64,000 nucleotides of DNA from NCBI GenBank assembly GCA_964036045.1, contig OZ038384.1:44641704-44705703 (forward strand), written 5' to 3'. Positions 8,207 to 54,050 of the stretch are shown here, one piece after another (the stretch's first letter is position 1; the number at the start of each line of letters is the position of its first letter). The DNA comes from Eutreptiella sp. 'Long Island Sound 2002' (Eukaryota; Euglenozoa; Euglenophyceae; Eutreptiales; Eutreptiaceae). A program made the position numbers and the translations under genes. Under the pieces are notes generated by a model. That model was not told the DNA's origin. It ran no database searches and saw only the letters and a program-made list of their open reading frames with translations.

Positions 8207-8231
8207 CTTAGGGGGCTCTATACGCACGTAG
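8207..8231 (+). repeat. Left terminal inverted repeat of element 1
   Basis: 25 bp starting CTTAGGGGGCTCTATACG. It pairs with 14694-14718 with a single mismatch at the seventh base (G against C). Confidence 0.88.
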
Positions 8232-8418
8232 ACTTCGTTGCTTAAAGGCACGATTCATGGCGATTTCAACATCCGTTTTTTGCACTCAAAAAAAGCATAT
8301 CATTTTTTCGGCCAACTCCACGTGTATTTTCATCGTGGGATACAACAACCTCGCCTTTTCTTGCGTCCAGATGTGCACATATACACCCCCTATTCCGGGC
8401 TGAAAATTGTATGATTTA

Positions 8419-8450
8419 AAATTTTTGGGCACTGCAGTGCCCAAAAATTT
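8419..8450. promoter_or_regulatory. 32-bp perfect palindrome with core GGGCACTGCAGTGCCC
   Basis: The core occupies 8427-8442. The arms AAATTTTT and AAAAATTT extend the symmetry perfectly to 32 bp. It is the best of eight related copies, all inside element 1, and lies 0.55 kb upstream of the transposase start. A dimeric DNA-binding protein site, such as a transposase or repressor site, is inferred. Confidence 0.6.
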
Positions 8451-8668
8451 GAAATGGCTTTTTTCAGTGGGTTCTCCAGTACACCTCTGTAGTCATCTCC
8501 ACAGGTGATGCTCTACTGCAGCAGCAGGCATCAAAACTTGGCATACCCGTTATCAATGGGTCATCGCACCGCGGTGTTATACTCGGAAGGCCACGTATAA
8601 TGTACCTTGCCCAATCACTTCCATTCCTGTCCAAATGTGCACTTGAAAATGGACTTCCAGTACTTTTC

Positions 8669-8683
8669 GGCACTGCAGTGTCC
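8669..8683. promoter_or_regulatory. Second upstream palindrome copy (GGCACTGCAGTGTCC)
   Basis: It differs from the core by one base in the right arm and again runs into AAAAAATTT. It lies 242 bp downstream of the first copy and 0.3 kb before the transposase ATG. Confidence 0.5.
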
Positions 8684-8984
8684 AAAAAATTTAAAACTCC
8701 GCATTTCACTTCTATTGGTTCCCATTGCGTAACACCTGACAAAGGACGTATGAATCATCGGACGTTGGTACTCATCCTTTGCTCATTGGAAATATACTGC
8801 CGGTTGTCTGACTGCCACCTTGGAGTGTACCCAGGCTTTGGAACGTTCCACGTCCATTGGGGGATACATTGTTTGGATCTTCGCTAGCTGCTGTTGGTCT
8901 ATGCCGCATCAAGTTTGTTTTGTGATAGTGTCTCCGTTTTCTTTGTCCCCTTACCTTTGCTGCCTGCGAACAGGACTTTTGTCC

Positions 8985-11075
8985 ATGGATGCGGCCCCCT
9001 TCCGGCAGTTCCTTAATTCGAAGGTATATGCTTCAAAGGAGGATCTATCTGAGGCTGTGGGTAGGGATAAGGGTGCCGATGAGTTTTGTACGTGGGTGTT
9101 AGATCTCCGGTTGGAGTGGAGAAGTAGGCAATCCGTTGGTGAATACATCCAACAAAGGGACAGGCGGACCGTTATTTGTCAGCCGGACCAATGGTTCCGT
9201 GTTGCCCAGCAAGAGATTTTTAATATATGGTCTGTTTCACACAAGAGCTGTCGTCCACGTGCCAAGAGGGCTGTAGGTGTCCAACCCAAGAGTCGTGTGC
9301 AACGTAGGTGTTTCGCTCACATGGGTCAGTGTTCTTACAATGTACCCTCCTTTGCTGTTCAAGGAGCAACTGCGTGCACCAGTCTTTGGCAGACCTTGGA
9401 AGGTAAACCCGCTGTCCTATGGTTCGATAATTTTTATAGACGTAACTTCCGGCCTGTGACTGGTAATGAGAACCGGTCCCTTAATTGTACAGCCGGTGCT
9501 ATCATACTCTTGAAACGACCTTTTGACGTTATGCCGTCTTTTCCTAGCCTCTCGGTTTTGCGGCAGAGGATTGGGTACACTGGAGACTTGTTGGTGCAGA
9601 GCCACAAAAACTTCATTGATGGCTTGCAAGGGTTGATGGACGACCCCATCCGCCTTCAACATGTTCGTTGTCCCTTGGACATACGACGGGCTAATGTTAC
9701 CAGCCCGGCTTGGACCCCCTTTTTTCTCACAGACCTAACTGTGTCTGCTACCCCCGACCTTGTCTCTATTATTCACGGGCTCCAGGAGGTGCAGCAGCAC
9801 ACACAGCACCGTCTTCCACTGTTGGTCGACGAAAATATTCACTACCGTGTCCTTAAGCTCGTTTACACCATCAGCTATGCTCGGTACAACGTGCCCCTGT
9901 TCATTACACGTACCCCGGTAGTGTATGGCACATGGCACCCATATAAATATTGTGTAACCCTGTGCTACAGAAGATTCTTCCCTTTATTTACCTATTTTTC
10001 CTATGGTTCACTCAATTTGGGCACTGCAATGCCCAACTTTCCGAAACTCATCTATATGGAGCGTATGATTGTGGTGCTCTTGCACTTGGCCCATAAGTGG
10101 CGCCAACCTTTGGAACAAAAGTTACAGACTCTAAGGGGTTTGCACCGACCGGGTAACGCTAATCACAGCACACTTCTTACACAGGTGCAAGGGTTGGTAA
10201 CGCTGCTGTATGGTTACATTCCAGCCTCATTTATTATTGGGTCGCAAGTGAGGGATTGTCATTGGTCTGCACAGGGAGAGCAGCACGCCGGGGGGCCATT
10301 GCTGAGCCGTTGCCTACACGTCCTTCTGAGGCTCACCCTAGGTTATGAGGACAAGGTTGAATATGTGCGCACCATTGTTGTTGCCAGGTTGTTGTGGTCC
10401 CAGTGGTTTGCCCGTTTACCTGGGGTGGCACACAGTGAGGAACCGTGTGAGGCCCTGTTAAGCCATGTTGTGCACTTAATGGCACAACACCCTGGGAACT
10501 GTACGTTGCAACAGGTGCATGACCTGGTTATACTCACTCCCGTTGCAGGCCACACCCCAAAGGACCTGCAGTACGTTAATGTTCCCAAGGGACTACCACA
10601 ACTGGTTGATCGTCGTTTCACCAGATTGATGGCGCCATTTGATGTTGGTGTTATACCCCCCGTGGTCTGGTCCAGTCAGAAGTCGAGTATCGTGCAAGAC
10701 AGGTGGGATCCTGCCAAGATGGATTTCCCTTGCGCACTAGATACGGTGCTCACTGCAGAGCATTACCGAGATCTATGTGCCAAGACATTGCAAACACTTG
10801 TTAAACCTGTTAAAGTTGATGCTGACGTGATGACAGAGCTGGGTAGACACGTGCCACAACGTCCTCCAGGTGATATGGACACAACAGTAGCACAGGCACA
10901 GGACATGTTACGCGCATGTAATACACTAGACCGGTACAAGCGACGCCGGCCAGCACGCGCTTTTGCGCAAAGGGACCCCGCCCGGATACCCGCCCCCCCC
11001 AATGCTGATGGCGACAGTGACAGTGATGAGGACCCTCCCCCCCCGCTGGTGGGGCAGCCGGAGATCCAGACCTGA
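8985..11075 (+). CDS. Putative DDE-type transposase of element 1 (CTTAGG family)
   Basis: The ATG at 8985 gives 696 residues, close to the 690 of the element 2 homologue. The frame is open further up, but an acceptor-like TGCCTGCGAACAG lies at 8961-8973, so an upstream leader exon is possible. Blocks shared with element 2 are WFDN with N-TA after it (residue ~146), W.PF.L (~243), L(V/I)D (~280), the striking YG.WHPYKY (~315), EY.RTI.VA.L.WS.W (~459) and SEE..EA.LS (~484). Asp of WFDN, Asp of LVD and Glu of SEE have conserved spacings (134 and 204 residues here; 132 and 208 in element 2), which is what a DDE triad would show. The C-tail is acidic (DGDSDSDED) and Pro-rich. The transposase role is inferred from the TIR/TSD context; I do not recognise a named family, although WFDN...TAG recalls DUF6589-type proteins. 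Confidence 0.75.
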   Translation: MDAAPFRQFLNSKVYASKEDLSEAVGRDKGADEFCTWVLDLRLEWRSRQSVGEYIQQRDRRTVICQPDQWFRVAQQEIFNIWSVSHKSCRPRAKRAVGVQPKSRVQRRCFAHMGQCSYNVPSFAVQGATACTSLWQTLEGKPAVLWFDNFYRRNFRPVTGNENRSLNCTAGAIILLKRPFDVMPSFPSLSVLRQRIGYTGDLLVQSHKNFIDGLQGLMDDPIRLQHVRCPLDIRRANVTSPAWTPFFLTDLTVSATPDLVSIIHGLQEVQQHTQHRLPLLVDENIHYRVLKLVYTISYARYNVPLFITRTPVVYGTWHPYKYCVTLCYRRFFPLFTYFSYGSLNLGTAMPNFPKLIYMERMIVVLLHLAHKWRQPLEQKLQTLRGLHRPGNANHSTLLTQVQGLVTLLYGYIPASFIIGSQVRDCHWSAQGEQHAGGPLLSRCLHVLLRLTLGYEDKVEYVRTIVVARLLWSQWFARLPGVAHSEEPCEALLSHVVHLMAQHPGNCTLQQVHDLVILTPVAGHTPKDLQYVNVPKGLPQLVDRRFTRLMAPFDVGVIPPVVWSSQKSSIVQDRWDPAKMDFPCALDTVLTAEHYRDLCAKTLQTLVKPVKVDADVMTELGRHVPQRPPGDMDTTVAQAQDMLRACNTLDRYKRRRPARAFAQRDPARIPAPPNADGDSDSDEDPPPPLVGQPEIQT

Positions 11076-11356
11076 GGGCTGCTGATTTTGTGGGTGATGA
11101 TGGATGGGACCCGGACCCCTCCCCTCCAGAAGCAGTGTCTGTTCACAGTGATGATTCCGATGCCCCCGTGGTTGTCCTTTCGGAGTTGAATGAGTTTGAC
11201 CCTCGATTTTTACCAGGTGCATCCGACTGTGATGCTATTTCTGCCATTTGTGTTCAATCGTCGAGCGCTGCCAGTAGTCATCAACATTACAAGCCTGTAA
11301 ATCAACAATTTGCAGCCCTGTGGCCTTTTGTAGTGTGCCGTGTGACCCTTTGTTAG
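11046..11356 (+). other. Possible continuation of the transposase in another frame
   Basis: Just before the TGA at 11073, a run of eight C (about 11036-11043) precedes LVGQPEIQT. In the frame offset by one base, GDPDLRAADFVGDDGWDPDPSPPEAVSVHSDD and DAPVVVLSELNEFDPRFLPG continue to 11356, keeping the acidic composition of the preceding tail. A one-base length change in the C tract, real or a sequencing error, would fuse the two. Otherwise this is 3' UTR. Confidence 0.35.
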
Positions 11357-11371
11357 CCCCTTTGCTAAGCT

Positions 11372-14038
11372 ATGCCTTCGGATACCGAACTGCCGGAAGG
11401 GGATGAGCAGCAGACCGCATCGCAAGCCGTTCACACAACAGAGAAGACACGGGCACAGTCGGGGCAGGCTCCAGTGAAGCGGACGGGGACAGACCGGGCA
11501 ACGGAAACATTCCGGACAACGTGGATCAAAAAGGAACTGGTCAAGATACAGCTGACCAAGATAAAATTTGACACCGACCTCACGCGTGGGCAGACTAGAG
11601 AGAGGGATGAGGACTCAGTACTGTCGCGGATCGCAAGCCTGAGGACAAATCCACCCTCCGGCCTATCTCAAACATTCTCATATGGCGAAACGAAGGTACA
11701 CTACCATCCTGTCACACACGCGTTGTAATTTTCACACATTCTGGTCGTTTGGGCACTGCAGTGCCCATCTCGCTGATATCTCCCATCTCCTATCTCCCTG
11801 TGGTGCATTTTTGTATCAGCTGACATTCCCTACTGCTTGGGCGGGGCTCATATCCTGACGGCACTCCAAAGACTTCACCGAGAATACTGTGCGAACTCAC
11901 GGGCATTGCCGGACTGGTTACAACACGTCTACTGCGAGGAGATCAGACACGACTTTCCTGTTGACATCAGAGAGATTATTGGAGGCGATCACAACGCGGT
12001 ACAACACTCAGTGACCAAGCTGAGTATGGGACAAGTGGCCGCTCGAATTTGGACTGAAGTGCAGAAGGGCAAAGCGAAAGAGATGCTGCTGGTGGCTCTG
12101 CGGAAGTGTGGCCGGCTGGGTGAGAAAACATCTGTGGTATGAGAGATGCACGATGAGACCACCGTAGTCAGTCCTTTGCGTACCTGTGGCCTGTCCAACA
12201 CTGTATGCCTGCCAGGACTCGATCTGGAAGAATTGGAGACCACTGGTTTCATTACTGCAGATATCTGGTGGCCGCGTGGCTGAGTTTATTGACACCTTTG
12301 AGAAGACTGCCGGTGAAGGTACTGTGTCCTCTGAGTACCTGTTTTCGTCGTCTTTTGGTGTTCATGGGAACTGCAGTGCCCAAATTCGATGCGACCTTAA
12401 TTTTTGCACGGCAGTGCTGAACCCCTACACTCTGCGGCCGTTGACGGGACTGCATGGCGACCAGATGGATGAAATACTGCTGTACATGGCTGGAGATGGG
12501 GCCAAAATCGCAGGACTACATGCCAAGGCCACACTGTTGAAGCGGGACCGCCTGTGGGAGATGCTGTACCTTCCCCCGGACAACACGCTCATCCATCCTT
12601 CTCGACGTATGTTTATGGGGCGGCAGGGTCTGGCGCGATCGCTGTTGAACCCCCCCCCCCCCGATCCACGACGTAAGGCTGTTTGGATCCCAGTGGTACC
12701 AGTGGTCTTCTGTTCTAACAGTGAACGTGCATGAAATGCAAAGAGTCCGCAAACTGCTTGCAAAGTCGCACCGGGCCGCCAAATTGTCACTGGGGAAATG
12801 GACCTGGAGTGCCGAAAATCTTTTACCAAGCTGGGACACCATCCAGAAAGCACCGCTGTGGCAGGATGAGGAATGGGCTGACCTGACGATTGCGCTGGCG
12901 AGGCCTATCAAGGAAACTGCAGCGACTGATGGGGAGAAATCAACAACTATCTGGCTCAACCAGCCGCAGGATGGGACTGAAGCAACTGGAGCTCGCGCAG
13001 AGGCAATTGCGTTGGTTCCTGGCAAGGCTATCCCGTATACGATTGCATTGAGGGAGTACAAACTGGTATGCAACCGTTAGGCATAAAAATGGGATCGATT
13101 TCGCATTGCTGGTCACTTTAGGCACTGCAGTGCCCATCTGTAATGAAATGTGCTTTTGACAACAGGTCTTCATTGAGTGTACGAAGGAACAAATGGACGA
13201 TATCCATCTGCTGGTGCTGAAGGTTGCTGGGAAGTTGGTACCTGTGGCTATTGGTGGAATGGCGGCCGACGTTAAGTTCCTGGTTAATCGGTTGCGCGAC
13301 TCTGAGGAGTGTGGAGGCTGGCTGTATACTATGACCTCTTTTTTTGATCAGGCAGTCGGTCACCCGACCTATCGGTTCGAGGAGAGGACTATTTGCTTCT
13401 GTGTCCCAGACAAGTTTAGGGTGAAGGTCCCGAATATTTTCATTTGCGATCAGGGTGCATACGGCAGCACCATTGGTCTGGCAGCGGCTGGTTGGCTCCT
13501 GCGTGTGCTTGGTATTGTTCCCCGACGCGATAGACAGTCCGCGGATGAAGTGTGGCTCCTGCTTTTGACAGCATCGGCTGTATTGCCAGCACAGCTCCTG
13601 TCCTGCCTTCCTGGGTCCCCCTGTCTGGCAGCTTGTTTCACTGGGCGCCAAGGTTTGTTTAACGAGTTCTGTGAACAGCTAGCGGCGTATGTGCAGGAGA
13701 CGGACTGTGTCTACTTGGTTAACTGGGACGCTTGGATGCCAAGGATTAGGGACTGTATGCCAGTTGTGGTGCAGCGGCCTGGGGATGGGGAAGATGAGGA
13801 GGGAGGGGACGATGTGGAGGAAGAGGAGGAGGAGGAGATCATGCTGGTCGGAGGAGGTGACAGCAAGAAGAGGAGCACACCCAGCAAGAAGAAGCCGTCC
13901 TCCGACGACGGTGGGGATGAGGTTGATGGTCCCCCCAAAAGGCCACCCAAAAAAGCCAAGGACAGTACCCCCCTCAATATGTTTCACGCCAAAGTAGGTC
14001 AGGCCAAGGGTAAGAAGGCTCCCCCAAAGAAGAAGTAG
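11372..14038 (+). CDS. Second gene of element 1, six exons, function unknown
   Basis: Exons: 11372-11684 (GC donor) or 11372-11695 (GT donor, out of phase), 11820-12136, 12216-12318, 12415-12606, 12722-13065 and 13166-14038. All junctions from the second exon on are GT-AG and in phase. With the GC donor the total is 714 codons including the stop. The product has no domain I recognise. Its N-terminal part is Lys/Thr/Glu-rich. The last exon holds a globular segment (KVAGKLVPVAIGG, CDQGAYGSTIG), then an acidic run (DEEGGDDVEEEEEEE) and a Lys/Pro-rich tail (PSKKKPSSDDGG, PPKRPPKKAK, GKKAPPKKK), as in nuclear DNA- or chromatin-associated proteins. It lies 0.3 kb downstream of the transposase on the same strand, inside the TIRs, so it is probably an accessory transposition or regulatory protein. 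Element 2 lacks it. Confidence 0.6.
11696..11819 (+). other. Intron of element 1 gene 2 carrying a perfect GGGCACTGCAGTGCCC
   Basis: The palindrome is at 11751-11766, 55 bp from the GTACAC donor. The acceptor is TTTTGTATCAG. With this donor the flanking frames disagree by one base; a GC donor at 11685 restores the frame. Confidence 0.55.
12319..12414 (+). other. Intron of element 1 gene 2 carrying GGGAACTGCAGTGCCC
   Basis: 96 bp, free of in-frame stops and divisible by three, so it reads through. The palindrome copy is at 12366-12381, 47 bp from donor GTACTG. The acceptor is TTTTTGCACGGCAG. The phases on both sides match (1 then 2 bases). Confidence 0.65.
13066..13165 (+). other. Intron of element 1 gene 2 carrying AGGCACTGCAGTGCCC
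   Basis: 100 bp, donor GTATGC, acceptor TTTTGACAACAG, phase 0 on both sides. The palindrome copy is at 13120-13135, 54 bp from the donor. Confidence 0.7.
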
Positions 14039-14693
14039 ACTGCGTTGTGCGGTTGGCACTGCCTGTGTCCATGTCAGTAGTTTTTTCGCCTCGATTTGCA
14101 CACTGTCGCGCGTCCTGTTCTATGCACGTGTGAGACTGGTGCCCTTTTTCATGTTTTGGTAATTTTGGGCGCTGCAGTGCCCAAATTCAGCGACTCGCCA
14201 TTTTTTTACCCCTGCTGCGCCATTTCTTTTGCAGGCATTGTTGCCGTCATTTATTATTGCATTGGCTGCACTGGCGGCGCCTCCGTTGTTTGTCGGCACC
14301 ACTGGTGGTGCATTATTTGTCACGCTTCGCATACAATCACAGTGACTGGGTCATCAGACGCGGTAACAAAAAGCAAACCAGAGGTTTGCATGTGTTTGCC
14401 TGTCATCCTCCTTGCTTCATTTTTTAGGTTTCATTTTGCGGTGTGGTTTGAAATGCAGCAGCGGATGATTTGAAACAATTGGATTTTTCTTCGGATGGAC
14501 ACTGCAGTGCCCAAATTTGAAGGGGATACACGACTTTTGACTGGCACATGTTGTACCCCCTACACACAGTCATTTTGGATAATTCACAGGTTTTTGGGGG
14601 TGTTCCCTGCAGAGCACAATTGTGCAATTTTTCAAAGTGGTTTTTCAGCCCCCGTTTTGGGGTGGTACCCATTTGGGATTTGTGGCAATTTTG
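14039..14693. promoter_or_regulatory. 3' region of element 1 with two more palindrome copies
   Basis: GGGCGCTGCAGTGCCC at 14167-14182 (flanked by AATTTT and AAATT) and GGACACTGCAGTGCCC at 14497-14512 lie between the end of gene 2 and the right TIR. The short open frames here have no homology and are not called as genes. Confidence 0.5.
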
Positions 14694-14718
14694 CTACGTG
14701 CGTATAGAGCCGCCTAAG
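14694..14718 (-). repeat. Right terminal inverted repeat of element 1
   Basis: It reads CTTAGGCGGCTCTATACG on the minus strand from 14718. The GTAAG duplication follows at 14719-14723. Confidence 0.88.
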
Positions 14719-14723
14719 GTAAG

Positions 14724-15778: not shown

Positions 15779-16209
15779 TTGCTCAACGCCACAAAAATCA
15801 ATGCTTTGGATAGGAGGTGGCTTCCACGAATCCATTTACCCTCACCGAAACTTTTGGCTGATAGGCGGGAATCTCAGTCGGGGAAAGGATTATGGATGGC
15901 TAAGTTGGATTTCACCAATGCATACCGGTCAATATGCCTGCTTGCCGGTTGGAGACACGGTTTTGTTGTGTGTGGGTGTGTGTGCAGGCGGAGGTACACC
16001 CGGTTGCCTTTCGGACGGAAATACTCCCCTGCGATATGTCAACGGTTGGTGAAGGCCTTGGTTCAGTCTGCTATGCAGGGCCTACCAGCGGTGACCAATG
16101 TGTATTTGAACGATATATTAGTCTACCAGCCAGACCCACAGCGGGTTTGCGTCGCCTTGGGTCGCATTGTAAATAAATTGAAAGCCATTTGGTTTTTGAT
16201 AAGCCAAAG
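15779..16209 (+). pseudogene. Reverse transcriptase fragment, DIRS/PAT-like
   Basis: The frame gives NALDRRWLPRIHLPSPKLL, then AKLDFTNAYRSI (catalytic Asp of motif A), TRLPFGRKYSP (motif B region) and VTNVYLNDILVYQP (motif C with Y-L-N-D replacing Y-x-D-D). The Asn for Asp change at the first position would inactivate it. After GRIVNKLKAIW the sequence should continue with the PTQ...FLG connection, but that piece is on the opposite strand just downstream (16210-16435). Confidence 0.6.
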
Positions 16210-18393: not shown

Positions 18394-20252
18394 ATGCCAG
18401 AGGCAGCAAGTGCCGCGGATCTCATTGCAGAGTTCAAAAAAGCCCACGAATGGGCGGAAGAGGGAGCCCTGATGGCATACGAGTCCACGCAAGTGGCCAT
18501 CGCCAGTCTTGTAGCGTCGGAACACACGACAGCAATTTTCTCAGACCACAAATATTTCGAAAACAAGGACGTCTCAGCAGCCCAATACAAGCTCGACACG
18601 GTCCTCAATCTCAAAGATCCCATCCTCCCCAAAATCATATGGTGCAAAGACGCCACCTTCAACCTGGTGATTGCAGTGCGCAGCTCAGCCCTGTTAGAGG
18701 GCATTGCTCTGTTCAAACAAGTGGTGGCTCAATACACGGATGTCTCTCTCAAGATGATAGTCTTCACAGGCAGGGAGTTACGCCTGGCTGAAGGTACGGA
18801 TCTGCTTCGGGAAAAGCTCCCATTCAACCCGGAATCAATCTCGTTGCTAAAGAGACCAATCAGTGAAAAAGGTGGCTCACATCTCCACACATGGATAGTG
18901 GAAGCACCGCAGGGAGTACGTAACAACCCCTTCGCCACCGCCCCCGCACGACGCATCGTCCAGCTTCTCCCTCCGGGTCAACACCCACTGAAACTGTTTG
19001 CCCCCATTGCGAAGCAGGTGGATAAGTTGGCTATCTGTATCAACAACAAATTCCTGAATGAGATGGTGTCTGAATTGGGTCTGGACACAGGCCTGACCGC
19101 AATCTCACCGGGACCACATCCAACCCAGACCAGCTGGGTCATCTTCCAACAAGCACTGGTGCCACAGGACAAAATCGACCAAACAGAATCAAAGTACTAC
19201 AGCAAGGAAAACTACGCCCGCGTCCCCTTCAAGACATACTCTGGTGACCTGAATGATTGCGAATGTATTGCGGAAGTCTGGATTGTCAAGAAGGCACAAA
19301 CACACGAAGCCCTCACAAAATTTTGGGCAGTGCTCAATTTCCATTTGTGCAAGATCACGGACCAGCTTCAGCACAGGCCGCAGGCACAGTACACAAACAC
19401 CAACAAAATACGCCTCGGGTTCAAGACCAAGGCGGATGCGCAGGTATTTGTGGAAAAGAGCCTACCGCAGCTCAAGGAGCTCGGATACGCGTTCAAAACC
19501 GAAGGAACCAAAGACGGGTATTGGGACCAGAGAGGATCGTCATCGTCGGCTGCCAGCATCCGCACGTCTACATCCTAGTCCACCAAAGGTTCGAAAGCAC
19601 CCACGGAGAAAGAAGATCACGTGGTTCTAGTGGATATACCAGAGTATCTGGCCCCCAACGAAATTCTGGCGGTAGTAAAACACGCGCTGGCCAGCCGCTC
19701 CATCCCAGTTGAAGACACCCAGGTGTCCATGGAAAGATTGAGGTGGTCGATGGGCAACATCCGCAGCCGAATTGGAGTGTGCGGGCACCGGGAGTCAAAG
19801 GGTTGGCGGGGGCAGTGCTGACCCTGACCGACCACGAGGGTTCCCAACGTGTGGCCACGATCCGTTCTTATTCTGACTGGGAAACCAGCTGGCAGTCATG
19901 GCGTGAAAGGGATAAGAACAAACCACAGCAGGCCCAGCAGGCAGGGCCAATGACTCCGGCACAGATTCTCCGTCGGAATCCAAACTCCCTCCTCCCCTCC
20001 CCTCAAGTGCAAGTACCACTGAACCCCATGCAGGCAGTACAGGTGCTGCCGAATATCCTCCCCCCGCAGGTACAACCCCCCCACCCCCTCTACCAAGGAC
20101 ATGTTCCGCTCACACAACAGAACCTTAGCTACCTACAGGCCCTGGTGTCGCAGACCCCCCCCTCCCAGTCCTCAGGATCACGCATGATGGCTTTGGACAT
20201 TGACAGTGTCAGAGGTAAACGGCCACGCAATGGTAACGATGACAACTTCTAA
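18394..20252 (+). pseudogene. LINE ORF1 (nucleic-acid-binding protein), nearly intact
   Basis: 394 codons from 18394 are followed by one in-frame TAG (19576). The same frame then continues VVLVDIPEYLAPNEI to about 19780, where a one-base shift moves it to the frame that ends at 20252. NKIRLGFKTKADAQVFV looks like an RNP1-type strand of an RRM, and the VVLVDIP segment could start a second one. The last part is Gln/Pro-rich and ends in a basic KRPRNG. LINE ORF1 proteins bind their RNA; this role is inferred from position just before the endonuclease-RT ORF, which it overlaps by about 50 bp. Confidence 0.55.
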
Positions 20253-23200
20253 TGTCACAACACAACCACAGACGTTCCCGTTGGGCAGCGACCTCACAGT
20301 TGCCACCATCAACGTCAACGGAGCGCATGCCGATCAGCAGGACGGCTCACGCATCATACCCAGGGTTAAAGTGGTGCTGCGCCACATGAAGGATTTGCAG
20401 GTGCAGGTCTTTGCGATGCAAGAACCGCACCTACAAATGGGATCAGCGCAATTGGAGGCCCGCTCCACCAGCCTCACAGACCTTGCTAGACAGCATGGCT
20501 ATGGCTGTAGGGCCCAGCTACCCCCCCCCCACACCAGGGGGGGGGGGTGGCACTATTGTGGCAAAAAGATTGGACGGAGGTCGCATCGGCCTCCATCTCC
20601 CCACGCCTGCTCCTAACTAACTTGCTGAGCCCAGAAGGCCTCGTGTATACGGTGGTCTCGGCCCATTTCAGTGATAAGCCAGACAAAAGAAAATCACAAT
20701 GGTTACGGTTGAAAGAAGCAATGACAATCTTCCCCTTCTCACAACACATACTCCTCCTCGCAGACCACAACTCGGTCATCACCCCGGCTGATGACTCTGG
20801 ATATATTTCTGAGCACGACAACCTCCCCCCCGCAGCCAGAGCACGAGCAAAGGAACTCAGCACCATCTCAGCACTGAGTCTGGGTGACACGTGGCACGAA
20901 GTATATGGCCCGGCTATGGACCACAACGACCCGCGAAGACCTAAAGGGTGGACGTGGGGATTCCACACTGAGCAGGACGACACCCCCCATCGCAGAAGGA
21001 TTGACAAAATCCATGTGTCCAGGCACATGTCAGCCTCGATCGTACGGTGCTACGCGAGAAAAATCGGCAGTGGAGATCACCGAGCGGTGGTTTCGACCCT
21101 GGCCCCCCCCACCCCCACAACGGTCCAGCCCAGGCAAAGAATCCCCACGTCCTTCCTACAGTGCGAGGATACCACAGCGGGCCTCGCCTAGCGGCTTAGG
21201 GGTCTCACGGCTCAAGGGGAGGAGTGGTGGGCACAGGCACTCCGCACTATCAGAACCACAGCGTATACTTTCGAAAAACAGGTAAACCCCAAGGGATTGA
21301 GTGAGGTCATGGCAATGCTGCAGGCAAGCACTGTCGATTACACCCCCCCCGAGGCGGCACACTTTTTGCAGCACCAAGGACTGACGCCAGCCACGCCACG
21401 GCAGGCATATGCGATGCTAGCCGCACAGGCAGAACAGGCCACTCAGCATAAAACGGAAGGGATTGTGCTCTCCAAACTACGGTCAGCGCTCAACACACAG
21501 CCGGAGGAACCACAGAGCAAACAGCAACGGCGGATAGAAATTGCACGGCTCACCAGGGAACTGCAAAGCAAGCGGAAGCTTACCGCACTCCGCAACAAGG
21601 CAGGGCGCACGTTCACTGAACCCACACAGATGGCGGAGGAACTGAAACAGTTCTGGTCTGGGGTAATGGCCAAAGGGGAACACACCGTCGAGGAGTGCGC
21701 CCAGTTTTTGCGCTCGCTACCCCTTCGCCCACAGCTAAAAGGGGCGGCAACTCTGCTCCTTAAGCCACTCACAGAGGAACTGGTGCTCACAGCACTGGAA
21801 AAAATGAAACCAGGGTCGGCCCCTGGCCTGGACGGAGTCACGGCAGAAATCCTGATGGCCCTCCCCGGGGCACTGGTGCCCAAAATGACGGAACAAATTG
21901 CACTTTTCCTTACCACAGGGAAAATCACAAAGGAGTGGGCACTCGCTATCCTGAACCCAATCCCTAAGCAAAAGGGCTCCATTTCGGTCACACAACTCCG
22001 CCCATTGTGCTTGCAAAGTGTGCTGTTTAAGTGGGTACCTCATGCTGCAGGACCTGCTTTTGTATGCCACCCCCCCCTGAGCAAGAAGGCTTCATGAAAG
22101 GGCGATTCATTTTTGAGCACATCTGGGAGGCGCGGGCGGCCTGGACCGCAATGGATTATGGTCTTTTTCTCTCCATCGATTTCTCCAAAGCGTTTGACTC
22201 TGTCCATCACAATTATTTTATTGCCTTCTTCACCCACCTGGGCCTCCCCCCACAGATGATCGCGCTCATCATGAACATGCTGACTTCCCCCTTTGTCTTT
22301 GGAGTGGGCAAAGGCGTAGTGCGCGAAGTGCAAGTCACACCAGAATCAGGGGTCCGACAGGGAGACCCACTCTCCCCAGCATTGTTCGCCATGGTCTGCT
22401 CGGTGCTGGTCCCCATGCTCCAGGCAGTGTCCCCTAGCATATGAGTCCTGTTCTACGCTGATGATCTCCTGCTGTACATCCCCGTCTCCCCTGCTCTGAT
22501 CTGCCCCCTCATACCAGACATCATGTACACGCTACGGCGGTACGCTAAGTTTGTAGGATTGCAGATCAACTTGGATAAATCGGCCTTCTTGTTGCGTGGC
22601 TTTTGGACGGACAGGCAGAAAACCAAACTCGAAAACACAGGCATTCCGGTGCAAAGCAAGGTGAAGTACCTGGGGAATCTTTTTGGGGACGTCACCCCTG
22701 ATGAAGCGTTTGCGCCCCATTTATCCCGTGCATTGGCGCGTGCGCAGTTCGCAGCGACCCTACCCCTGACGATGCCAGAACGAGTACACCTGCTCCAGGA
22801 GTGGATACTCCCATTGATGATCTACCCGGCGAGGGCCTACTTCCCCACGGAGGATGTATGCACCAAGCTGGCGAATGTGTACCGGGTGGCCCTAAGGCTC
22901 AGCAGCTGGGGCCTCACCCTACCCATACTGCAGCTTCCCCCGAAGCTGGGGGGAGCACTCCTCCCGAAACCCAGCCTCTTCTTGCTGTGGCAACACGCCA
23001 CACACTTCGTGATGTCCCGGCACGACACTAGTAAGCTCTCCCCCATTTCTGCACAGCATTTCAGTGGTTGGGCCAAATGCTTCGGGGTACAGGCGGAGCT
23101 GGGTGACCTCCCATGGCTACAGCTGGGTCCCATCCCCTGGAACACCTACCCCTTTTTGGGCACCTCAGCAAAAGCCTTCTCCCTGTTACGGAAACTGGCC

Positions 23201-23875
23201 CCCATCCTCCCCCCCAACACAGACCAGGCACCACGGCTGAGCTGCTGGCATTCGGTACTTTCCAGGGCCACAAATAACAACACATATTTTTCACCAAAAC
23301 TCATCAGGGCAGGGATCACACGCATCGGACAGTGCACACCGGACCTGTAGGAGAGACTGCCGCCCACATGGTCCCCGAGGTACAAGGCCCAGCTGGGACA
23401 GGCCTGGCCCCGACCACAGATGACACCACCACAAGAAACATCGGCCATTTTCTGGGTGGGTTGGAATACAAAGGCCATGCTCAGGTACCTGATGCGTCAG
23501 GAACCCCCGGACCCCCGTCAAACACCGGAAACCTGGCAGGCCTGGACCAAGCTATCGATACCGCCCAAACACCACTCTTTCATACAGACCGCACTGTGGA
23601 AAAAACTCCCAGTGGGGACCAGACTCGCCAACTGGCTCCCTCAGCACACACACTGCCTGGTGGATGGCAAACCAGAAGACATGCGACATGCGCTTCTGGA
23701 GTGCCGGTTCCTCCCCCCCGCAAAATCAGAAGTGGCCCACAAGTGGCCTTATCACGAGGTTTTCCATAACTCTCTCCAGCCCCTCAAAGCTGGGATCATT
23801 GCCTCAACAAGTTCAGAGTTCCTCGGCATTGTGGCTGTTTTGTCACAGGTGTTTACACCCCGCTGCATGCTATAG
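20200..23875 (+). pseudogene. LINE ORF2: APE endonuclease, reverse transcriptase, zinc-knuckle-like end
   Basis: The order is EEP/APE endonuclease with VATINVNG, AMQEPHL, LLADHNSV and GDHRAVVSTL; an RT finger GSAPGLDGVTAEI; QLRPLCLQSV; then QEGFMKGR, SIDFSKAFDSVHH (motif A), GVRQGDPLSPALF (motif B), LFYADDLLLY (motif C) and KVKYLGNLFG (thumb). HCLVDGKPEDMRHALLECRFL follows (C...H...C, zf-RVT type). Frameshifts occur at the G/C tracts near 20530-20550 and 22070. Isolated in-frame stops are TAG 21189, TGA 22442 and TAG 23348. All catalytic residues remain. The RNase H seen in related copies is missing here because the copy ends near 23875. Confidence 0.85.
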
Positions 23876-26628: not shown

Positions 26629-27927
26629 TTATGGCGTGCCAAACAAAGGGCGGCTGGGGTCCGGTGTTCCACACCGTGAGCCCTCCGTGCTGCACGTGAT
26701 CGTGGAGGCCGTTGCTGGTGATCTGGGTGCCAGCCAGGCCTCATCACAGCTGCCTGGGGGGGAGGGGGGGGCTGACGAGGGGAAGAGTTCCTGCCTGACG
26801 TCACGCATTGGTGTTTGCCGTGGTGAGCGGGAGACCGCCCGCGACCTCCATCCAGAGGCCGGGTCAGTACAGCCTGGTGAGTGGCGTGGTCTCTTGGAGG
26901 CTAGGGTGCAGTCCTCGACTTCCAGCAGTGGAGTAACTCCCTGTCTGCGGGGGGTCGGGGGGGGGGGTGTGCCACGAGGAGGCGGGCTGGCCGCCCGCTC
27001 CTCCGGAGAAAACATGGGTTGCTCATCCAGGTCGGACTCGTCTTCCTGATCCTGTGCCTGCCCTTCCTGCTGTGGGCGCCGGGCCGAGGTGACATACCCT
27101 CGGAGGAGGGGGGATTTGCGGCGGCCCATGTCAGCCAGTGTGTCCGCGTGTGTGTTCCCTACAATGCCAACGTGTGAGGGGACATGCAGCCAGCGTACCG
27201 CTGCCCCTGCCTGCTCAATTTCCCCAAGGAGTTGCTCCCACAGGTCCACGTGGCCCACCGGCCCCCGCGAACCTTGCCAGTCATGGCGCCGCCATTTGCT
27301 TGCTTTGCCTGTGGCCCCCATGACCACAAGTTTTGAATCAGAGCAGATCGGTGTGCGCTTGTGCTGTGTCCTATGGCGAATGGCATGTATGGCCGCGAGG
27401 AGCTCTCCCCTGTTATTTGTTTGTTTCTGAGTGATGGGGATGCACTGTGCCGTGTCCCGGTGATCCCCGAAATATACCCCAAACCCTCCCACCATTCCCG
27501 CCTCCGGATGGACCTCCGACGAGCCGTCGGGGTAGATGGCTTCCCATCCCTCCGCTACATACTCATCAATGACTTTCTGATGCACATTCGCCATCGCTGG
27601 ACCATACATGTCTTTTTTGCGTTTCCTGGGCCGCGGGTTGCGGAGCTTGGGGGGGGATGGGTGGGGTTGGCTGAGCCTGGGGTGCTGCAAGTTTCCTGTT
27701 TCCTTGAGGGATGCGATTGCTCGGTGCATGTCCCGCACTCCGGGCGTGGGGAGGGTTGGAGCTGGGTGCTCGTACCATCGCGCAAGAATGCACAGCCACT
27801 GTGTGAGGAATATGTCCCATGTTGGGGGGGTGTCTCGGAATTTGACCGCATTGCGCAGGTTCCAGGATGCCATAACCGCGGTCCACATGATCAGCCCTAG
27901 CGGGCTCTGGAGGGATAGAACTGGCAT
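26629..27927 (-). pseudogene. 5'-truncated LINE with intact RNase HI domain
   Basis: 432 codons. Numbered from 27927, the RNase HI acidic residues are Asp134 (AIYPDGSSE), Glu175 (NNRGELLAAI), Asp197 (ICSDSKLVV) and Asp262 (NTHADTLADMG), with His252 in HVPSHVG. All the expected residues are present. RNase HI removes the RNA strand during LINE cDNA synthesis. Upstream of the domain, SPLGLIMWTAVMASWN corresponds to the linker between the zinc knuckle and RNase H in the copy at 45748. Everything 5' of that is missing, because the LINE is truncated against 85-bp-type repeats near 28 kb. The tail is long, Pro/Arg-rich and probably disordered. It is convergent with the LINE at 18394-23875. Confidence 0.8.
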
Positions 27928-45595: not shown

Positions 45596-45747
45596 CCAGC
45601 CCGCACCGCTGAGCAAGACACGCCAATGGGGCGCCAACTGAGCACATGTGCACACCACCATCACTCCCGAGTCGAGGCCGTGTGCGTCAGCTGCCCAACA
45701 GTGCCCAACCCTGAAGTACCCTGTCACATAATCACCTGGGGGGGGGG

Positions 45748-47200: not shown

Positions 47201-48486
47201 CCATGACACGCAAGTGCCGCAGGATTGGCACGCCCGAACCCCAAAGCCAAATCAGGTGCACCCCGCCACCGCCGCGGATGCCGCTGCATTCACAGCCAAC
47301 GCCAATGTCAGGAGTGCACCACGGGTAGTAGGACCCAACAGGCACCAGAGCCACCGTCCCCACTCACGCCCAGTGCTAGGACCAATCTGTTGCAGTCACT
47401 GAACTTGGTCGAGATGGAAGAGGGGGGGTGGGGCAGAAGGGATGATGTCGGACGGCTGGATGGCAGGGGACTGAGACGGTGAGTCCATTGCCGACACCGA
47501 CTCCACAATGTCGTGCAGCACAGCGTGCTCACTGTGCTTTACCCCCTGAAAACACAACCCCACCCTGAATGTTGAATGTTGTATGTAGTGACCTCCCAAC
47601 CAATGCCTGTACCCACTGGGTTCTTAAACCTAAGGTCCAACATCCGTCCAACGTGGTGCGGGCCGAACGGGGCCAGCAACCAGCACGCACAACGTGGGAC
47701 TGACCACTGACCGGTATGCACGCCTAACCCAATAGAGTCCACGAGTCCAAGGGCCCAGATCTGACCGTAAAAGGCGAGATGACCAGGGATAGGGCAGGGA
47801 GCGAGCACTCAAGACATTGGCTGTGCGGACGATCGGTGGACATTGGCTCATACAGTGGACAGTAGGCGGTGAAGGCCGTGGGGAGCAGGCGCGGCTGGAG
47901 GCTAATGCGGACATTGCAACCTGACCTATTGCAGCCCTCCCACACACACACAAAGTGCACGCAACCTACGCCTAAAATCTTTTGTCACTTATATCCACCT
48001 GCAACCTATGCCAAAAAAAAGTGCACGCAACTTACGCCAAAAAAAAGAATGCAACTTACGCTTTTTTCCGCACTCGACCAATGCCCAGAGTGAGTTGGAG
48101 GAAGTTGTGTGGTTCAGTAGCACGTCGTAGACCTGGTGCTCGCCAACATCTTTTGTGTGGCGTGTTGGCATTGGAGAGTGAAATCCAAAATTGGCTGTTG
48201 GCGGTGGAGAGTGAAATCCAAAATTGCAGCGTTCTGCCCTCTGGCGTCCACCCCTGCCAGCGCCAACAAGCTTCACATTCAGCAATTCCAGGCTGTGAAG
48301 TTTGTGGGGTGTTCTCAACCACAAATGATGTGGGAATGGTAACGCAGGACCAGAGATATGGGGCCAGGGGGATGGGGACGGCGAGCCTGAGGGGCCCATT
48401 TGCAGGAGACATCTGGACAGGGTGTTCATAAAAGGAGAAACGTTCCACGGCCCCAGAAGTAGCCTCTGCTGTGTTCTTCCCTTCAG
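47201..48486. other. LINE 3' UTR and end of intron 6
   Basis: 47590-47700 matches the 3' UTR of the minus-strand LINE (26163-25715). 47955-48065 has three GCAAC(C/T)TACGCC..AAAA repeats. A GGAGAGTGAAATCCAAAATTG block is duplicated at about 48172-48225. The acceptor GTGTTCTTCCCTTCAG ends at 48486. Confidence 0.5.
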
Positions 48487-48657
48487 CCTCTCTGATTGCC
48501 GAACAAGTGGCGAGCTCCTGTGATTTGCACAAGGTCTGGCAGACGCTGGGCAAGTTCGTGCTCACGGTCCTGGTGGGCCTCGTGTTGCAGGCGCTTGTGG
48601 TGCTCCCCGCCGTCTACTCACTGGTGGTGCGCCGCAATCCATGGCGCGTTTTGTCAG
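48487..48657 (+). CDS. SLC1 transporter exon 7 (TM6 region)
   Basis: 171 bp. It starts with CC, completing an Ala codon from 43310, and encodes SLIAEQVASSCDLHKVWQTL, GKFVLTVLVGLVLQALVVLP and VYSLVVRRNPWRVLS, ending on G before a strong donor CAG/GTATGG. The RNP preceding the end is the conserved rkNPfrfl motif. The next exon, which should start the serine-rich HP1 loop, is not in the window. Confidence 0.94.
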
Positions 48658-50561
48658 GTATGGTAGTTTCTGCAGTGTCTATTGGCACGGTTTTTCATAT
48701 GAGAAGTCTGGGACCGCCGACTTCGGTGAACCGCTGACCACTAACCGCTAACGGTTGACTGCCAACTGCTGGCGGTTAGACCCGACCACGGATGGTGAAT
48801 CCTCAACCGCCGATGGTGAGCCGTCAATTGCCGGAAGTTGAGGGTCAACCGGTGACCAGTTGACGTTTGTTGGCAGTTGTCTCAGGATTCTTGCACTGTA
48901 TCCCTGCTGCATGCCCCTGTCCCCAATACCCCATGTCCCCATGCCCTACGCCCTCTAGTGCATGCCCCACAGCTGCGCTTTTCTCCCACCCGTCCACCAC
49001 GTTCCGTGCCCTCTCTCCCGTGCCCTGTGCAAGCCCCAGGCTTCGGGAGTTCATTTTCTGTGCAGCCCATGCACGGACAGCCTTGGGTTGTGCTGTGTTC
49101 TGGGTCGTGCTGTGTTCTGTTGTGTTCTGTCATGGTGTTGTGTGGTTGTGTGCGTTGTGCTGTATCGGCGCATGGCTCTTTGGTGTCTCACGCCGCCTCA
49201 CCGCACGGTTCCACGGTAGGACTCTGGCTAGATACCATGTTCAGCCGATGCTCCCGCTGCGGAGCTCGCGTCTAGCCTGAGTGGAGCCAGAAGATGGCAG
49301 GATAGCTGCGGCCCCAGGGAACGCTCAGGACCTCCAGGAAGGGCTGCCACTCAGAATTTGTGCGGTTGGTACGAAGTTGGCGCGCCGCACCAGTCAGCCT
49401 TGAAATGATCCAGGAAAAATACACAGTGAAGCCATGTGAAGCTTACGTAGGCACCCAGGCTCATTTGGCTGAGTCGTGTCTTCTCTGCCTCCTCCGCCCC
49501 TCCCCCCCCCCCGGCGTCAGCTTTTGTTGTGCGACGTCGTGTTGCTTTGTGTCACATCATGTTGTCTCGTATCGTGTCGTCTTGTGTTGTGTTGTGTTGT
49601 GTCGTGTGGTGTCATGTCTGTTGTGTCGTGTCGTGTCGTGTTGTCTTAATGTGGCTTAAAGGATCAGCACAAATGCCAAAATGGTTCACTGTGGCACAAG
49701 AATCTTGCATTCTTGGTGTGATGCATGTCAGGACACATGGCTACATGACCCCTGCGGTATCGGGGCCACTACATGCGCACATCACACGCATGATACTGGG
49801 TAAGGGTGCCACGCAGGTACACGCAAAGTGCCGCAGTTTCCCGCCGGTTGCACCTGCCCCGCCCACCCCTCTATCCCGCGATTGAACCTGCCACACGTGC
49901 ACAGTGCATGTGGTTGTATAATCTGCAAAGTCAGCGCAGCTACCGTGGAGGGAAAAACTGTTGTGTTTTGTCATGTTGTAATGTGCTGTGTTTGTTGTGT
50001 TGTGTTGTCTGTTGGGTGATGTGATGTGGTGTGGTGTGGTCTCACTCTATGTCATGTCGCGTCCTGTCACGTCGTATCGTATCGTGCTGTGGATGATGTG
50101 TCCTGTTGTGTCATGTCGTGTCAAGCTGTGCGGTTTTGTGTTGTGTTGCGCTGTGCTACGTTGTGTCACATCATGTCGTGTCTTGTTGTGGTGTGTCATG
50201 CTTTGTTGTGCCGTCTCGTATCATTTTGTGTTGTGTTGTGTTGTGTTGTGTTGTGTTGTGTTGTGTTGTGTTGTGTTGTGTTGTGTTGTGTTGTGTTGCA
50301 TTGGGCGAGGGGAAAATTGGCTTGCGCGGGGGGGGGGGTCGTGGGAGCCCCCCGAAGGAGGGGTGGGGGGGCTGGCAATGGGGCTCCTGTGACAGAACCC
50401 TTGGTAAAGTACCAATGGCCTGGAAGAGAGGTTGTTAGATCAAGCACACGCGTGGGCGTCGTATACCCACCCTTTTTGGGGTCATTCACGTAGCATACCC
50501 CAAGGCATGGTGTAATAATTTGTACTCAGAAGGCTCCAAGCCATGGGGATGCACATTCCTA
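48658..50561. other. Intron 7, first part: TGTTG-rich low-complexity DNA
   Basis: From about 49080-49160 and 49555-50300 the sequence is a degenerate GTTGT/GTCGT pentamer satellite, with a pure (TGTTG)n run at 50228-50297. Elsewhere there is a CCGCTAACGGTTGACTGCCAACTG inverted-type repeat near 48740-48870. No exon matching the next SLC1 block is seen. Confidence 0.6.
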
Positions 50562-50745
50562 CCGCATCAACCCATGGTCAAATGGCAGCGCAGCCAGCTG
50601 CAGTTTTTGCTGTTGGCGGTTCGAATCCTTGCCAGTCGAATGCCATCGGCGGCGCCGCCGGCATGTGCACCTGACCGGGGTTCGAACCGCCGACCAAAAA
50701 GTCTGCCGCCAGCTGCACTACGATTTGGCCACTGCCAGTCACGGT
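50562..50745. repeat. Inward-facing pair of tRNA-like modules, pair C (compact)
   Basis: Left, + strand: TGGTCAAATGGCAGCGCAG (50574-50592) and B box GGTTCGAATCC (50618-50628). Right, minus strand: TGGCCAAATCGTAGTGCAG (50731-50713) and B box GGTTCGAACCC (50688-50678). The two modules are clearly homologous to each other, with only about 50 bp between their B boxes, so the whole is an imperfect inverted repeat of a tRNA-like sequence. Confidence 0.65.
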
Positions 50746-51408
50746 GAATAGGGCCTCCCCACTGCTGGGATCCAATGCCGAAGGCGCTCTTACCAGAAGG
50801 CAATGGCCGGGATGTCTGCCCACGGGTATAGGTAAACGGGAGGGCTGTGTGTCTAAGTGCGCGCCGGGTGCCAGTGTGTTGTTGTACAGTCGGGACCACT
50901 GCACAGTTTGCACTAGGCCGGTGCTGCTCTGCCGACGCCTGTGCACGGTCACTCAAGGTCTATTGGGCTCACTACACTTTGTGTGTTGTACTGCACTGCT
51001 TGGTGCCGTGCGTTGCAATGCACTGTGTGCATTGTACTAGGCGAACCAGCAACACACTGCCCACGGGGGGGGGGGGTGACTCCACATGTCCTAGGACGCC
51101 AACTACCCCTGCCCAACCTTGACTCGAACACCCACCCCCAACCCTCAGCCTACTCCTATCCCTACACCTAACCCCAATCAAGACTGAATATTGGGACCGA
51201 GCTGGTGGGGGAGGGAACATCGGCTATGAATGGTGAGGGACACCAATGAGTCACACATCGAAGCCCGTTGACAGAGTGAAATCAGCTTGCAAGTGATCCC
51301 CTTCACCACAAGGCCCACTTTCAAGGCTTTTTTTGACTTTTGAGGGGCCAAAATGCCCCAAAATGGGCTCAAAATGGGCTCATGTCACCCGTTTGTGCAC
51401 CCCAAATG
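50746..51408. other. No gene recognised
   Basis: There are C tracts at 51064-51076, a CCTAnCCC-rich stretch near 51130-51175, and AAAATGGGCTC repeats just before element 2. Confidence 0.4.
51404..51408. repeat. Target-site duplication AAATG, left
   Basis: AAATG immediately precedes element 2 and is repeated at 54051-54055. Confidence 0.8.
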
Positions 51409-51616
51409 CTTAGGCCACGCTAACTACCCGCCCCTTACGACCCAGACATGTGCGCTTTGTTGCCTTTTCTGTGTCTTGTTTTTGTGCCTATGTTTTCCAT
51501 GTGTCGCTTGTACTGTAATAGGTGGTGATGAATAGCTGTACATTTATTGCGTGTACTATGCATACACACTTTGACACTCAAATTCACTGTCTCTATTTGC
51601 CAATTTAGCAATGCCT

Positions 51617-51881
51617 GGGCGAAATTTCCCCCAGCCTCCCCGGATAGCAAAAAAGGTATACATATTTTGATGTCTTGATGATCCCGGGCGAAATTTCGCC
51701 CAACTCTGCCTGTTCTGCAAAATATATAGCTTAAAAACACCAATCAGTGATCCTGGGCGAAATTTCTTCCAGCCCCCCCGTGTTGCTTATTTCCTTGTGC
51801 TGTGCATGATATGTTGCCCTCTGCCTGCCTGTTGCCTAGGCCCACCAGTCGATAAAGTTGAACCTGGGCGAAATTTCTTCC
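51617..51881. promoter_or_regulatory. Four copies of the element 2 palindrome GGGCGAAATTTCGCCC
   Basis: The perfect palindrome is at 51686-51701. Copies with a changed right arm are at 51617-51632 (GGGCGAAATTTCCCCC), 51755-51770 and 51866-51881 (GGGCGAAATTTCTTCC). Starts are spaced 69, 69 and 111 bp, and three are preceded by CCT. All lie 0.1-0.36 kb upstream of the ORF start. Confidence 0.65.
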
Positions 51882-51976
51882 AGCTTGCTTTGACACCCTT
51901 TACCTACAAGGTGGTACCTCTGTTGGGTTCTGTTCACTGACTCTTAGGGTTGCTTCTGCCAATGTGGCTGTGAGAC

Positions 51977-54049
51977 ATGATTGATGTGCGCTTTCTTCAA
52001 ACAGCCGTGGGGGGTACTCCCGTTCGTACCCCGAAGGCTCTCATTCGGGTGGCATTGAACAAAGGGAGGACACTCCCGCTGCAGCAGCTGGCACTGGATT
52101 TGCGTCACAATAGAAAGACTAGACGTAATGTTGGGCATGTGCGGGCTGCCTTCAGTTCTAGTCGTGTACCAAGATGGTTGCCGGTCCTGCAGAAGCAAGT
52201 TTTCTCACTGTATAACATTGTGCGAGTGCTGACACATCCCCGTGCTGAGAGAGCCACTGGAGCCTCATATCGTGGGACAATGACCCAGTCCATCCGTCGT
52301 AAGCTGGCAATGGCAGGGGAATGCACTATCAATGCCCCTACTATCTCGGCCCAGGCCAGTGTTCAAGCTTCACACCTGTGGGATTCATTTCAGAGACAGC
52401 AAATTACCCTGTGGTTCGACAATTACCGTCGCTACATCAATGGGGTCGACCCCCATAGCCCTGATAAGACTTTGAATGTGACTGCTGTCGGTGTGTTGTA
52501 CACTACTGAGCTGCCCCAGTACCACGGTCTGCCCGGTTTGGATGCTGTTGCACAATGTATACCCGGGGTTGTCGACTACCTAGTTCGCTGTGTTGGGTTG
52601 TTGTTGCAAAGAAGTACCGTCCCACATGGGCCTATTCTGCGGACCGGGGCTCGTGCACCTCTGGACTATGCTCGCAATGCTATGGTATCCCTCATTTGGA
52701 GGCCCTTTCTGTTATCACACCTGAAATGTGGAAGTCATGTTGAGTTACTAGAGTTTGTCAGGGGGCTAGAATGCTTGCAGGTGAAGACGAGACGGATTGT
52801 GCCATTTCTGATTGACATGAAGATCTTTTACGCACTCCTGAAAATGTCGTTCGGAGCAAGCTATGCCCCCTGGCACGTAGACCAGTTCTTGTTGGGACAC
52901 CCCTTGCTTTACGGTGTCTGGCACCCATATAAGTATTCTGTGGAAATAACCTACAAGGCATTTGCCCCTATTATTAAATTTCTTGAGCAGGGTTGGGACC
53001 TGAAGGCTGGAGCTGCGGTGCCCATGAAAGTCAAACTACGTCATATGGAAAAAACCATTGTTGGTTTGTTCCTGCCTACAGCTGCTAACAAAGCACGGCT
53101 TGATAGTACTGCCCAGGTCCTTATGGGTAATCTTGCTGAGTTGTCTGATGTTCAAAGACTGGGTTTGAAATGTCTGTTAGCCCTGAAGTCCCTGTTGTAT
53201 TCGTACTGCCCAGCACTTCTGGCACTAGGGGTTCTTGTGCGTGAATGTAACTGGAACGGTCGCTCTCTGAATTCCAGTGCAGCTGCAAAAGAATGCATTG
53301 GAATGAGTACTGTCTTGATGATGAATATCGTACCCTCTGAAAAGTGGCTGAGCACTGAATACCTGCGTACCATTACTGTAGCACTGCTTTTCTGGTCCGA
53401 CTGGCACACCCGGGCACTTGGTTGCCTGTTTTCTGAGGAGTACGGCGAGGCAATGCTTAGTCGCCTACTCATGCGGTCAAGGGAGGTTGGTAATGCGCAG
53501 ACGGTGCAGCAGACAGCTGATATTTTTTTAACTCTCCCCCCCACACTTCCAGGAGAGAAAAAATGCCAGGGTGTCTTGACGCAGAAGTCTGTGGACAAGT
53601 ACACAAAGCACGTGCGTTTGTTCATTCAGAACGTCTCACATTTTTGGTTCCCCATTGCTGTCCTGGAAGAGGATAAGTATGTGGTCAAACGTTTTGATGA
53701 AGCCCCCCGCATGCAATTTCCGGGAGTGTTGTCGCGTACAAGGGTTACAGAGCAGCAGTTTTTGAGCCTTGTTCGGCATAGCCTACGGTGTCTGATTGCC
53801 AAGACCAAAATACCCAATGGTGTTGAGGATTTTCTGAATGCATACAGCCAGAAGCGCTCCAATGTTGACCACAGGCAACGAAGTGCACACTACCAGAGTA
53901 TCAACACAGCTCCAAAACCAGCTGCAAAACCAGCCGCCAAACCCCTAGCGCGCGGTGTGCAGGTGGTCGTCCCCCCAGCACCCCCCCCCCCCCCCTCCCA
54001 GACCCCCCCCTCCCAAAAGGTAGGGGGGTGGGCAGTTAGCGTGGCCTAA
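51977..54049 (+). CDS. Putative DDE-type transposase of element 2 (CTTAGG family)
   Basis: 690 residues from ATG 51977, intact. The N-part is basic (RKTRRNVGH, SIRRKL), as expected of a DNA-binding region. Conserved blocks with the element 1 protein: TLWFDNY (Asp148), NVTA, W.PFLLSHL, PFLIDMKIFY (Asp280), PLLYGVWHPYKYSV (311-322), EYLRTITVALLFWSDW (461-476) and SEEYGEAMLSRLL (Glu487-488). The C-tail is low-complexity Pro/Ala/Lys with a C tract in the DNA, and ends in the TIR. The pairing of an intact ORF with perfect TIRs and duplications suggests recent activity. No named family is recognised; the DDE assignment is an inference from conserved acidic residues. Confidence 0.78.
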   Translation: MIDVRFLQTAVGGTPVRTPKALIRVALNKGRTLPLQQLALDLRHNRKTRRNVGHVRAAFSSSRVPRWLPVLQKQVFSLYNIVRVLTHPRAERATGASYRGTMTQSIRRKLAMAGECTINAPTISAQASVQASHLWDSFQRQQITLWFDNYRRYINGVDPHSPDKTLNVTAVGVLYTTELPQYHGLPGLDAVAQCIPGVVDYLVRCVGLLLQRSTVPHGPILRTGARAPLDYARNAMVSLIWRPFLLSHLKCGSHVELLEFVRGLECLQVKTRRIVPFLIDMKIFYALLKMSFGASYAPWHVDQFLLGHPLLYGVWHPYKYSVEITYKAFAPIIKFLEQGWDLKAGAAVPMKVKLRHMEKTIVGLFLPTAANKARLDSTAQVLMGNLAELSDVQRLGLKCLLALKSLLYSYCPALLALGVLVRECNWNGRSLNSSAAAKECIGMSTVLMMNIVPSEKWLSTEYLRTITVALLFWSDWHTRALGCLFSEEYGEAMLSRLLMRSREVGNAQTVQQTADIFLTLPPTLPGEKKCQGVLTQKSVDKYTKHVRLFIQNVSHFWFPIAVLEEDKYVVKRFDEAPRMQFPGVLSRTRVTEQQFLSLVRHSLRCLIAKTKIPNGVEDFLNAYSQKRSNVDHRQRSAHYQSINTAPKPAAKPAAKPLARGVQVVVPPAPPPPPSQTPPSQKVGGWAVSVA

Positions 54050-54050
54050 G

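Follow-up and report, generated by a model that had tools for sequence, protein, structure and literature searches.

CTTAGG-ended DNA transposons in Eutreptiella sp.: a candidate superfamily near P, hAT and Transib with a predicted palindrome-binding second gene

Two CTTAGG-ended transposons at the locus

The window analysed here, a 64,000-nucleotide stretch of contig OZ038384.1 from Eutreptiella sp. 'Long Island Sound 2002' (assembly GCA_964036045.1), harbours two DNA transposons, Element 1 (family 1) and Element 2 (family 2). They probably represent one group of CTTAGG-ended elements with 5-bp target duplications and hundreds of genomic copies, in which the first open reading frame (ORF1) is predicted to encode a DDE transposase and a second gene (ORF2) a protein binding the palindromes of the element. 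Element 1 (8207..14718, + strand) is a full-length copy of 6,512 bp with a left terminal inverted repeat (TIR) at 8207..8231 (+ strand), a right TIR at 14694..14718 (- strand; 24 of 25 positions matching) and the 5-bp duplication GTAAG on its left (8202..8206) and right (14719..14723) flanks. Element 2 (51409..54050, + strand; 2,642 bp) has TIRs at 51409..51434 (+ strand) and 54025..54050 (- strand), matching at 24 of 26 positions and at all of the outermost 17, and is flanked by the 5-bp duplication AAATG (51404..51408 and 54051..54055). Both pairs of inverted ends read CTTAGG...CCTAAG and both direct duplications are perfect; the ends, TIRs and duplications claimed in the original prediction, an earlier reading of the letters alone, are exact. 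When every CTTAGG in the window was compared with every CCTAAG at a spacing of 50 to 20,000 bases, just these two pairs among the 13 x 12 combinations had an identical flanking 5-mer.

ORF1, a predicted DDE transposase gene, encodes 696 aa in family 1 (8985..11075, + strand) and 690 aa in family 2 (51977..54049, + strand). The homology earlier proposed for the two proteins is borne out by an alignment of 616 columns in which they are 29% identical (E 1e-68), with WFDN, LVD/LID, WHPYKY and SEE conserved in both.

In full-length copies, which measure about 6.5 kb in family 1 and about 6.35 kb in family 2, ORF1 is followed downstream by the multi-exon ORF2. Element 1 is 94.8% identical to another family-1 copy (L106) over 6,527 columns, and the exons of ORF2 were placed from the open frame, GT-AG borders and the agreement of these two copies. 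Five exons are predicted, all on the + strand: exon 1 (11372..11695, with a frame slip against L106 near its end), exon 2 (11820..12136), exon 3 (12261..12318), exon 4 (12415..13065, with a frame slip at a poly-C run near 12651-12663) and exon 5 (13166..14038). Exons 1-2 make up a predicted sulfiredoxin/ParB-like domain. Two full-length relatives of Element 2 with intact ends (6,354 and 6,343 bp) each carry ORF2. Since Element 2 lacks ORF2 and its own ORF1 extends into the right TIR, it is an internal deletion derivative; the original prediction was exact in its coordinates but had not recognised it as a shortened copy. This derivation, along with ORF2 and the palindromes described below, is new beyond that prediction.

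Copies, target duplications and empty sites in the genome

Further copies were sought in the 2.28-Gb genome (2,205 contigs) that contains the window. The exact 25-mer end of family 1 occurs 327 times (163+164) and the exact 20-mer end of family 2 occurs 277 times (150+127), with 0 occurrences for the reversed-pattern controls of both ends. The Element 2 protein matches at least 70 stretches of the genome, this count being a minimum, as scoring was limited to the best candidates; nine of the 70 listed are stop-free, and the sole full-length one among these is the window copy. A left TIR is recognisable upstream of the ORF in 29 of the 30 retrieved family-2 loci (L001 being the window copy), and the ends of genome copies stop at CTTAGG without extension. 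For the most part, the left flanks of these 30 loci are unrelated. About 930 bp of left flank is, however, common to L010, L013 and L026 at 97-98% (L009 shares 51 bp with them), and the insertions are therefore not all independent; these three loci were probably duplicated along with their surroundings rather than formed by separate insertions. At L040/L041, the outer flanks of the element are exact reverse complements over 20 bases, an inverted duplication around the element.

For family 1, 40 end-pairs were taken among the matches listed and the ends of 20 were retrieved; for family 2, 15 end-pairs were retrieved among the matches listed, together with one whose end was known from L020. Direct duplications of at least 5 bp flank 30 of these 36 pairs (28 of exactly 5 bp and two of 6 bp). 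Family 2 contributes 12 of 16 pairs, ten with exactly 5 bp and two with 6 bp in A/T runs; its four misses include one pair with inverted flanks and one joining two left-type ends. Family 1 contributes 18 of 20 (17 of 19 with exactly 5 bp, plus the copy L105), and both of its misses show a single-base difference inside the 5-mer.

Empty sites were sought by joining the flanks of 31 duplication-bearing sites (12 of family 2, 17 of family 1 and the two in the window) and comparing them with the retrieved sequence. Uninterrupted relatives spanning the junction were found for five sites, none with a gap exactly at the junction. The target of L085 has its relative in Element 1 itself (98%), this being a copy inserted into another copy; those of L081, L075 and L054 have theirs in L105 (97%), the window (90%) and L016 (84%), respectively, and the target of Element 2 is found uninterrupted in L018 (80%) and L002 (76%). 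The whole 5-mer is kept for four of the five insertions, that of Element 2 included, being intact in the relatives from the window, L105, L106 and L018 and mismatched in L016 and L002. The duplications at 30 of 36 pairs and the five empty sites substantiate the earlier claim of a real DNA transposon group.

The lengths of the 40 family-1 pairs fall largely into two classes, with 10 at 6.48-6.53 kb and 14 at 3.40-3.42 kb. The 3.4-kb class is very uniform in length and looks recently amplified. L105, the sole 3.4-kb copy read, shares with Element 1 just about 240 bp of the left end and 591 bp of the right end, and no ORFs resembling ORF1 or ORF2 were found in it; it is a non-coding derivative of family 1 with inverted internal arms.

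Family-private palindromes

Each family has its own type of 16-bp palindrome, of the form GGGC-N8-GCCC. In Element 1, GGGCACTGCAGTGCCC occurs at eight sites: 8427..8442 and 8668..8683, 10019..10034 within the ORF1 coding sequence, 11751..11766, 12366..12381 and 13120..13135 within predicted introns, and 14167..14182 and 14497..14512. Element 2 has four sites, namely GGGCGAAATTTCCCCC at 51617..51632, the perfect palindrome GGGCGAAATTTCGCCC at 51686..51701, and GGGCGAAATTTCTTCC at 51755..51770 and 51866..51881. The whole window was scanned for 16-mers with a self-complementarity of 14/16 or better that recur four or more times within 7 kb on either side. Besides the palindromes of both elements, this returned four 16-mers, which sit in tandem arrays at 55.4 kb and at 60-62 kb; ten block-shuffles of the window returned none. 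At up to 2 mismatches, the eight sites of Element 1 compare with 0.09 expected, and neither palindrome has a site in the 54.9 kb of the window outside the elements. At 3 mismatches, the four GGGCGAAATTTCGCCC-like sites of Element 2 are joined by a fifth, outside the element at 7248 (0.39 expected in all). Neither motif was found, at up to 2 mismatches, in the tested sequence of the other family.

Confinement is also seen in 28 family-2 loci of the genome: at up to 2 mismatches, 122 palindrome sites lie on the element side, counted from the left TIR, and the 24.9 kb of flanking sequence to its left contains 0. Furthermore, the family-2 sites are oriented: near the left end, GGGCGAAATTTCTTCC lies in one orientation by 42 to 0 across 29 loci, and the four right-end regions carry its reverse complement, so that the lopsided variants at the two ends mirror each other.

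Such oriented subterminal sites near both ends are similar to the subterminal repeats that are bound by the transposase in other DNA transposons, and the palindromes could accordingly be sites for the transposase itself, or structural features such as hairpins, with ORF2 serving another role. This alternative is given real but limited credence. The non-autonomous L105, devoid of ORF2, still keeps six palindrome sites, some within sequence unrelated to Element 1, which is in its favour. Nevertheless, palindromes also lie in the middle of the element and in predicted introns, and the adjoining gene is predicted to encode a protein of the ParB/sulfiredoxin fold; ParB is a protein that binds 16-bp palindromes. 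These points speak against the alternative.

The predicted transposase and its placement

Structure prediction returned RNase H-like DDE transposase folds for both ORF1 proteins, with the P-element and Hermes transposases ranking first, followed by Transib and RAG1. The conserved residues suggest a catalytic triad of D148, D282 and E486 or E489; models, fold matches and conserved residues together predict that ORF1 carries both the D-D-E and the RNase H-fold signature. A clear match to any non-transposase family was not found. Sequence comparison placed the protein in no named family: all matches of ORF1 to Pfam are far below the curated cut-offs (best E 0.047), 17 ORF1 homologues have zero matches to Pfam transposase families at E <= 1, and a 10-sequence profile matched zero chains among PDB sequences at E <= 5. 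Foldseek comparison of the ORF1 model with the PDB and with viral models turned up no usable match, and relatives of ORF1 were not found in viral and prokaryotic contigs.

The nearest folds differ from the present elements in distinct respects. The P element makes a target duplication of about 8 bp, compared with 5 bp in both families here; it shares about 9% sequence identity with ORF1 across the aligned structure, the CTTAGG ends are a further difference, and the THAP and P transposase domains are not among the Pfam matches of ORF1 at E <= 1. Transib makes a 5-bp duplication, as do families 1 and 2, but its ends begin with CAC, whereas the elements here end in CTTAGG, and ORF1 has zero sequence matches in the PDB, which includes HzTransib. 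The duplication range of hAT (5 to 8 bp) covers the 5 bp found here, hAT5 being the precedent in the available text of PMC12730594. However, Hermes has CxxH and ORF1 has GxWH, the second gene of full-length copies sets them apart from hAT (Hermes), and the hAT dimerisation and BED domains are not among the Pfam matches of ORF1 at E <= 1. A C/DxxH motif between the second D and the E is described for Dada, hAT, Kolobok, MuDR and P in the portions available of PMC3706591 and PMC10045372. In ORF1, GxWH occupies residues 315-318 in 13 of the 13 alignment rows having letters there, with Gly in place of Cys/Asp.

It could be argued that the group is a very divergent lineage inside a named superfamily of the P/hAT/Transib neighbourhood (for example, hAT5) and forms no superfamily of its own. 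The matching folds of P element, Hermes and Transib speak for such a placement, as do the existence of hAT5 families making 5-bp duplications and, by an inferred alignment, the position of GxWH, which resembles that of the motif in the C/DxxH group (PMC12730594, PMC3706591 and PMC10045372, each as excerpted). It is regarded as rather unlikely, given that neither the 17 homologues nor the 10-sequence profile tied ORF1 to a known transposase and that the ends are CTTAGG and not the CAC of Transib. Since P, hAT and Transib each fail at least one of the signatures tested, the most fitting description of the group is a candidate superfamily close to them. It had earlier been called apparently undescribed, which holds within Pfam, PDB sequences and the open-access literature; in the last of these, a published description of the group was not found. 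It is rare for a new superfamily of eukaryotic DNA transposons to be recognised, and Repbase counted 23 superfamilies in 2022 according to the available part of PMC10045372. A predicted P/hAT/RAG-like fold combined with a 5-bp duplication would inform the evolution of duplication length and chemistry in the lineage of RAG.

The second gene and possible self-recognition

Sulfiredoxin and ParB have a common superfamily fold. The profile of ORF2 exons 1-2 built from both families, which are 21-24% identical in this part, matched six sulfiredoxin sequences (E 1.6e-4 to 6.4e-4), aligned across GGxH. A Pfam ParBc match was not found for these exons; the whole of ORF2 and its first domain each gave a single sub-threshold match in Pfam, and the first domain gave zero matches in NCBIfam and PHROGs and no relatives in phage records. 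The C-terminal exon is likewise conserved between families (20% identity, E 1e-5), and its rough pN/pS (the ratio of non-synonymous to synonymous differences) is 0.35 between the two family-1 copies, Element 1 and L106. A profile of this exon found nothing in the PDB (best E 1.6), and P0003, with 16% covered, is the only relative of ORF2 found in the protein database. It is improbable that the first domain lacks a role in DNA binding, being instead a sulfiredoxin-type enzyme or belonging to a passenger gene in decay. Although the significant profile matches are sulfiredoxins alone and Pfam found zero DNA-binding domains in ORF2, the conservation of both its ends at just about 20-24% identity together with the pN/pS of exon 5 indicates that ORF2 seems retained for function, and ParB-like accessory proteins are reported in algal DNA transposons (PMC12477816, in the text available).

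The closest parallels are bacterial and algal. In bacterial ParB-parS systems, parS sites are 16-bp palindromes; here, similarly, 16-bp palindromes adjoin a gene predicted from sequence to encode the ParB/sulfiredoxin fold. ORF2 differs in that it sits in a transposon and has introns, and the Arg after GGxH is substituted. Among algal transposons, Sola1-1_Ec32 and others carry a ParB-like protein for which binding to, and modification of, its own element's sequence has been proposed; the available text of that report mentions no binding sites (PMC12477816), and a methyltransferase was not detected in the ORF2 described here (whole-ORF2 Pfam scan and exon 5 PDB profile search).

In the mechanism proposed, the ORF1 protein would cut at the CTTAGG ends, likely by cut-and-paste, and the ORF2 protein would bind the 16-bp palindromes of its own element. 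Such binding would mark the element's DNA, either for the pairing of its ends or for avoiding host silencing. If so, the retention of palindromes in a non-coding derivative reduced to little more than its ends would be accounted for. It is inferred that the palindromes and the ParB/sulfiredoxin-fold gene together may serve self-recognition; with family-private palindromes next to such a gene, the notion that transposons label their own DNA becomes testable.

Other features of the window

Apart from the two elements, large ORFs at 18394-23350 resemble, by eye, parts of long interspersed nuclear element (LINE) retrotransposons, and the three large ORFs there have zero Pfam matches at E <= 0.001. 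A 432-aa ORF on the minus strand (26629-27927) carries an RNase H domain (PF00075, E 1.1e-23). At 55367-63997 lies a chain of diverged tandem arrays, their periods ranging from 23 to 291 bp; from about 58.9 kb, several reading frames of this region are open on both strands.

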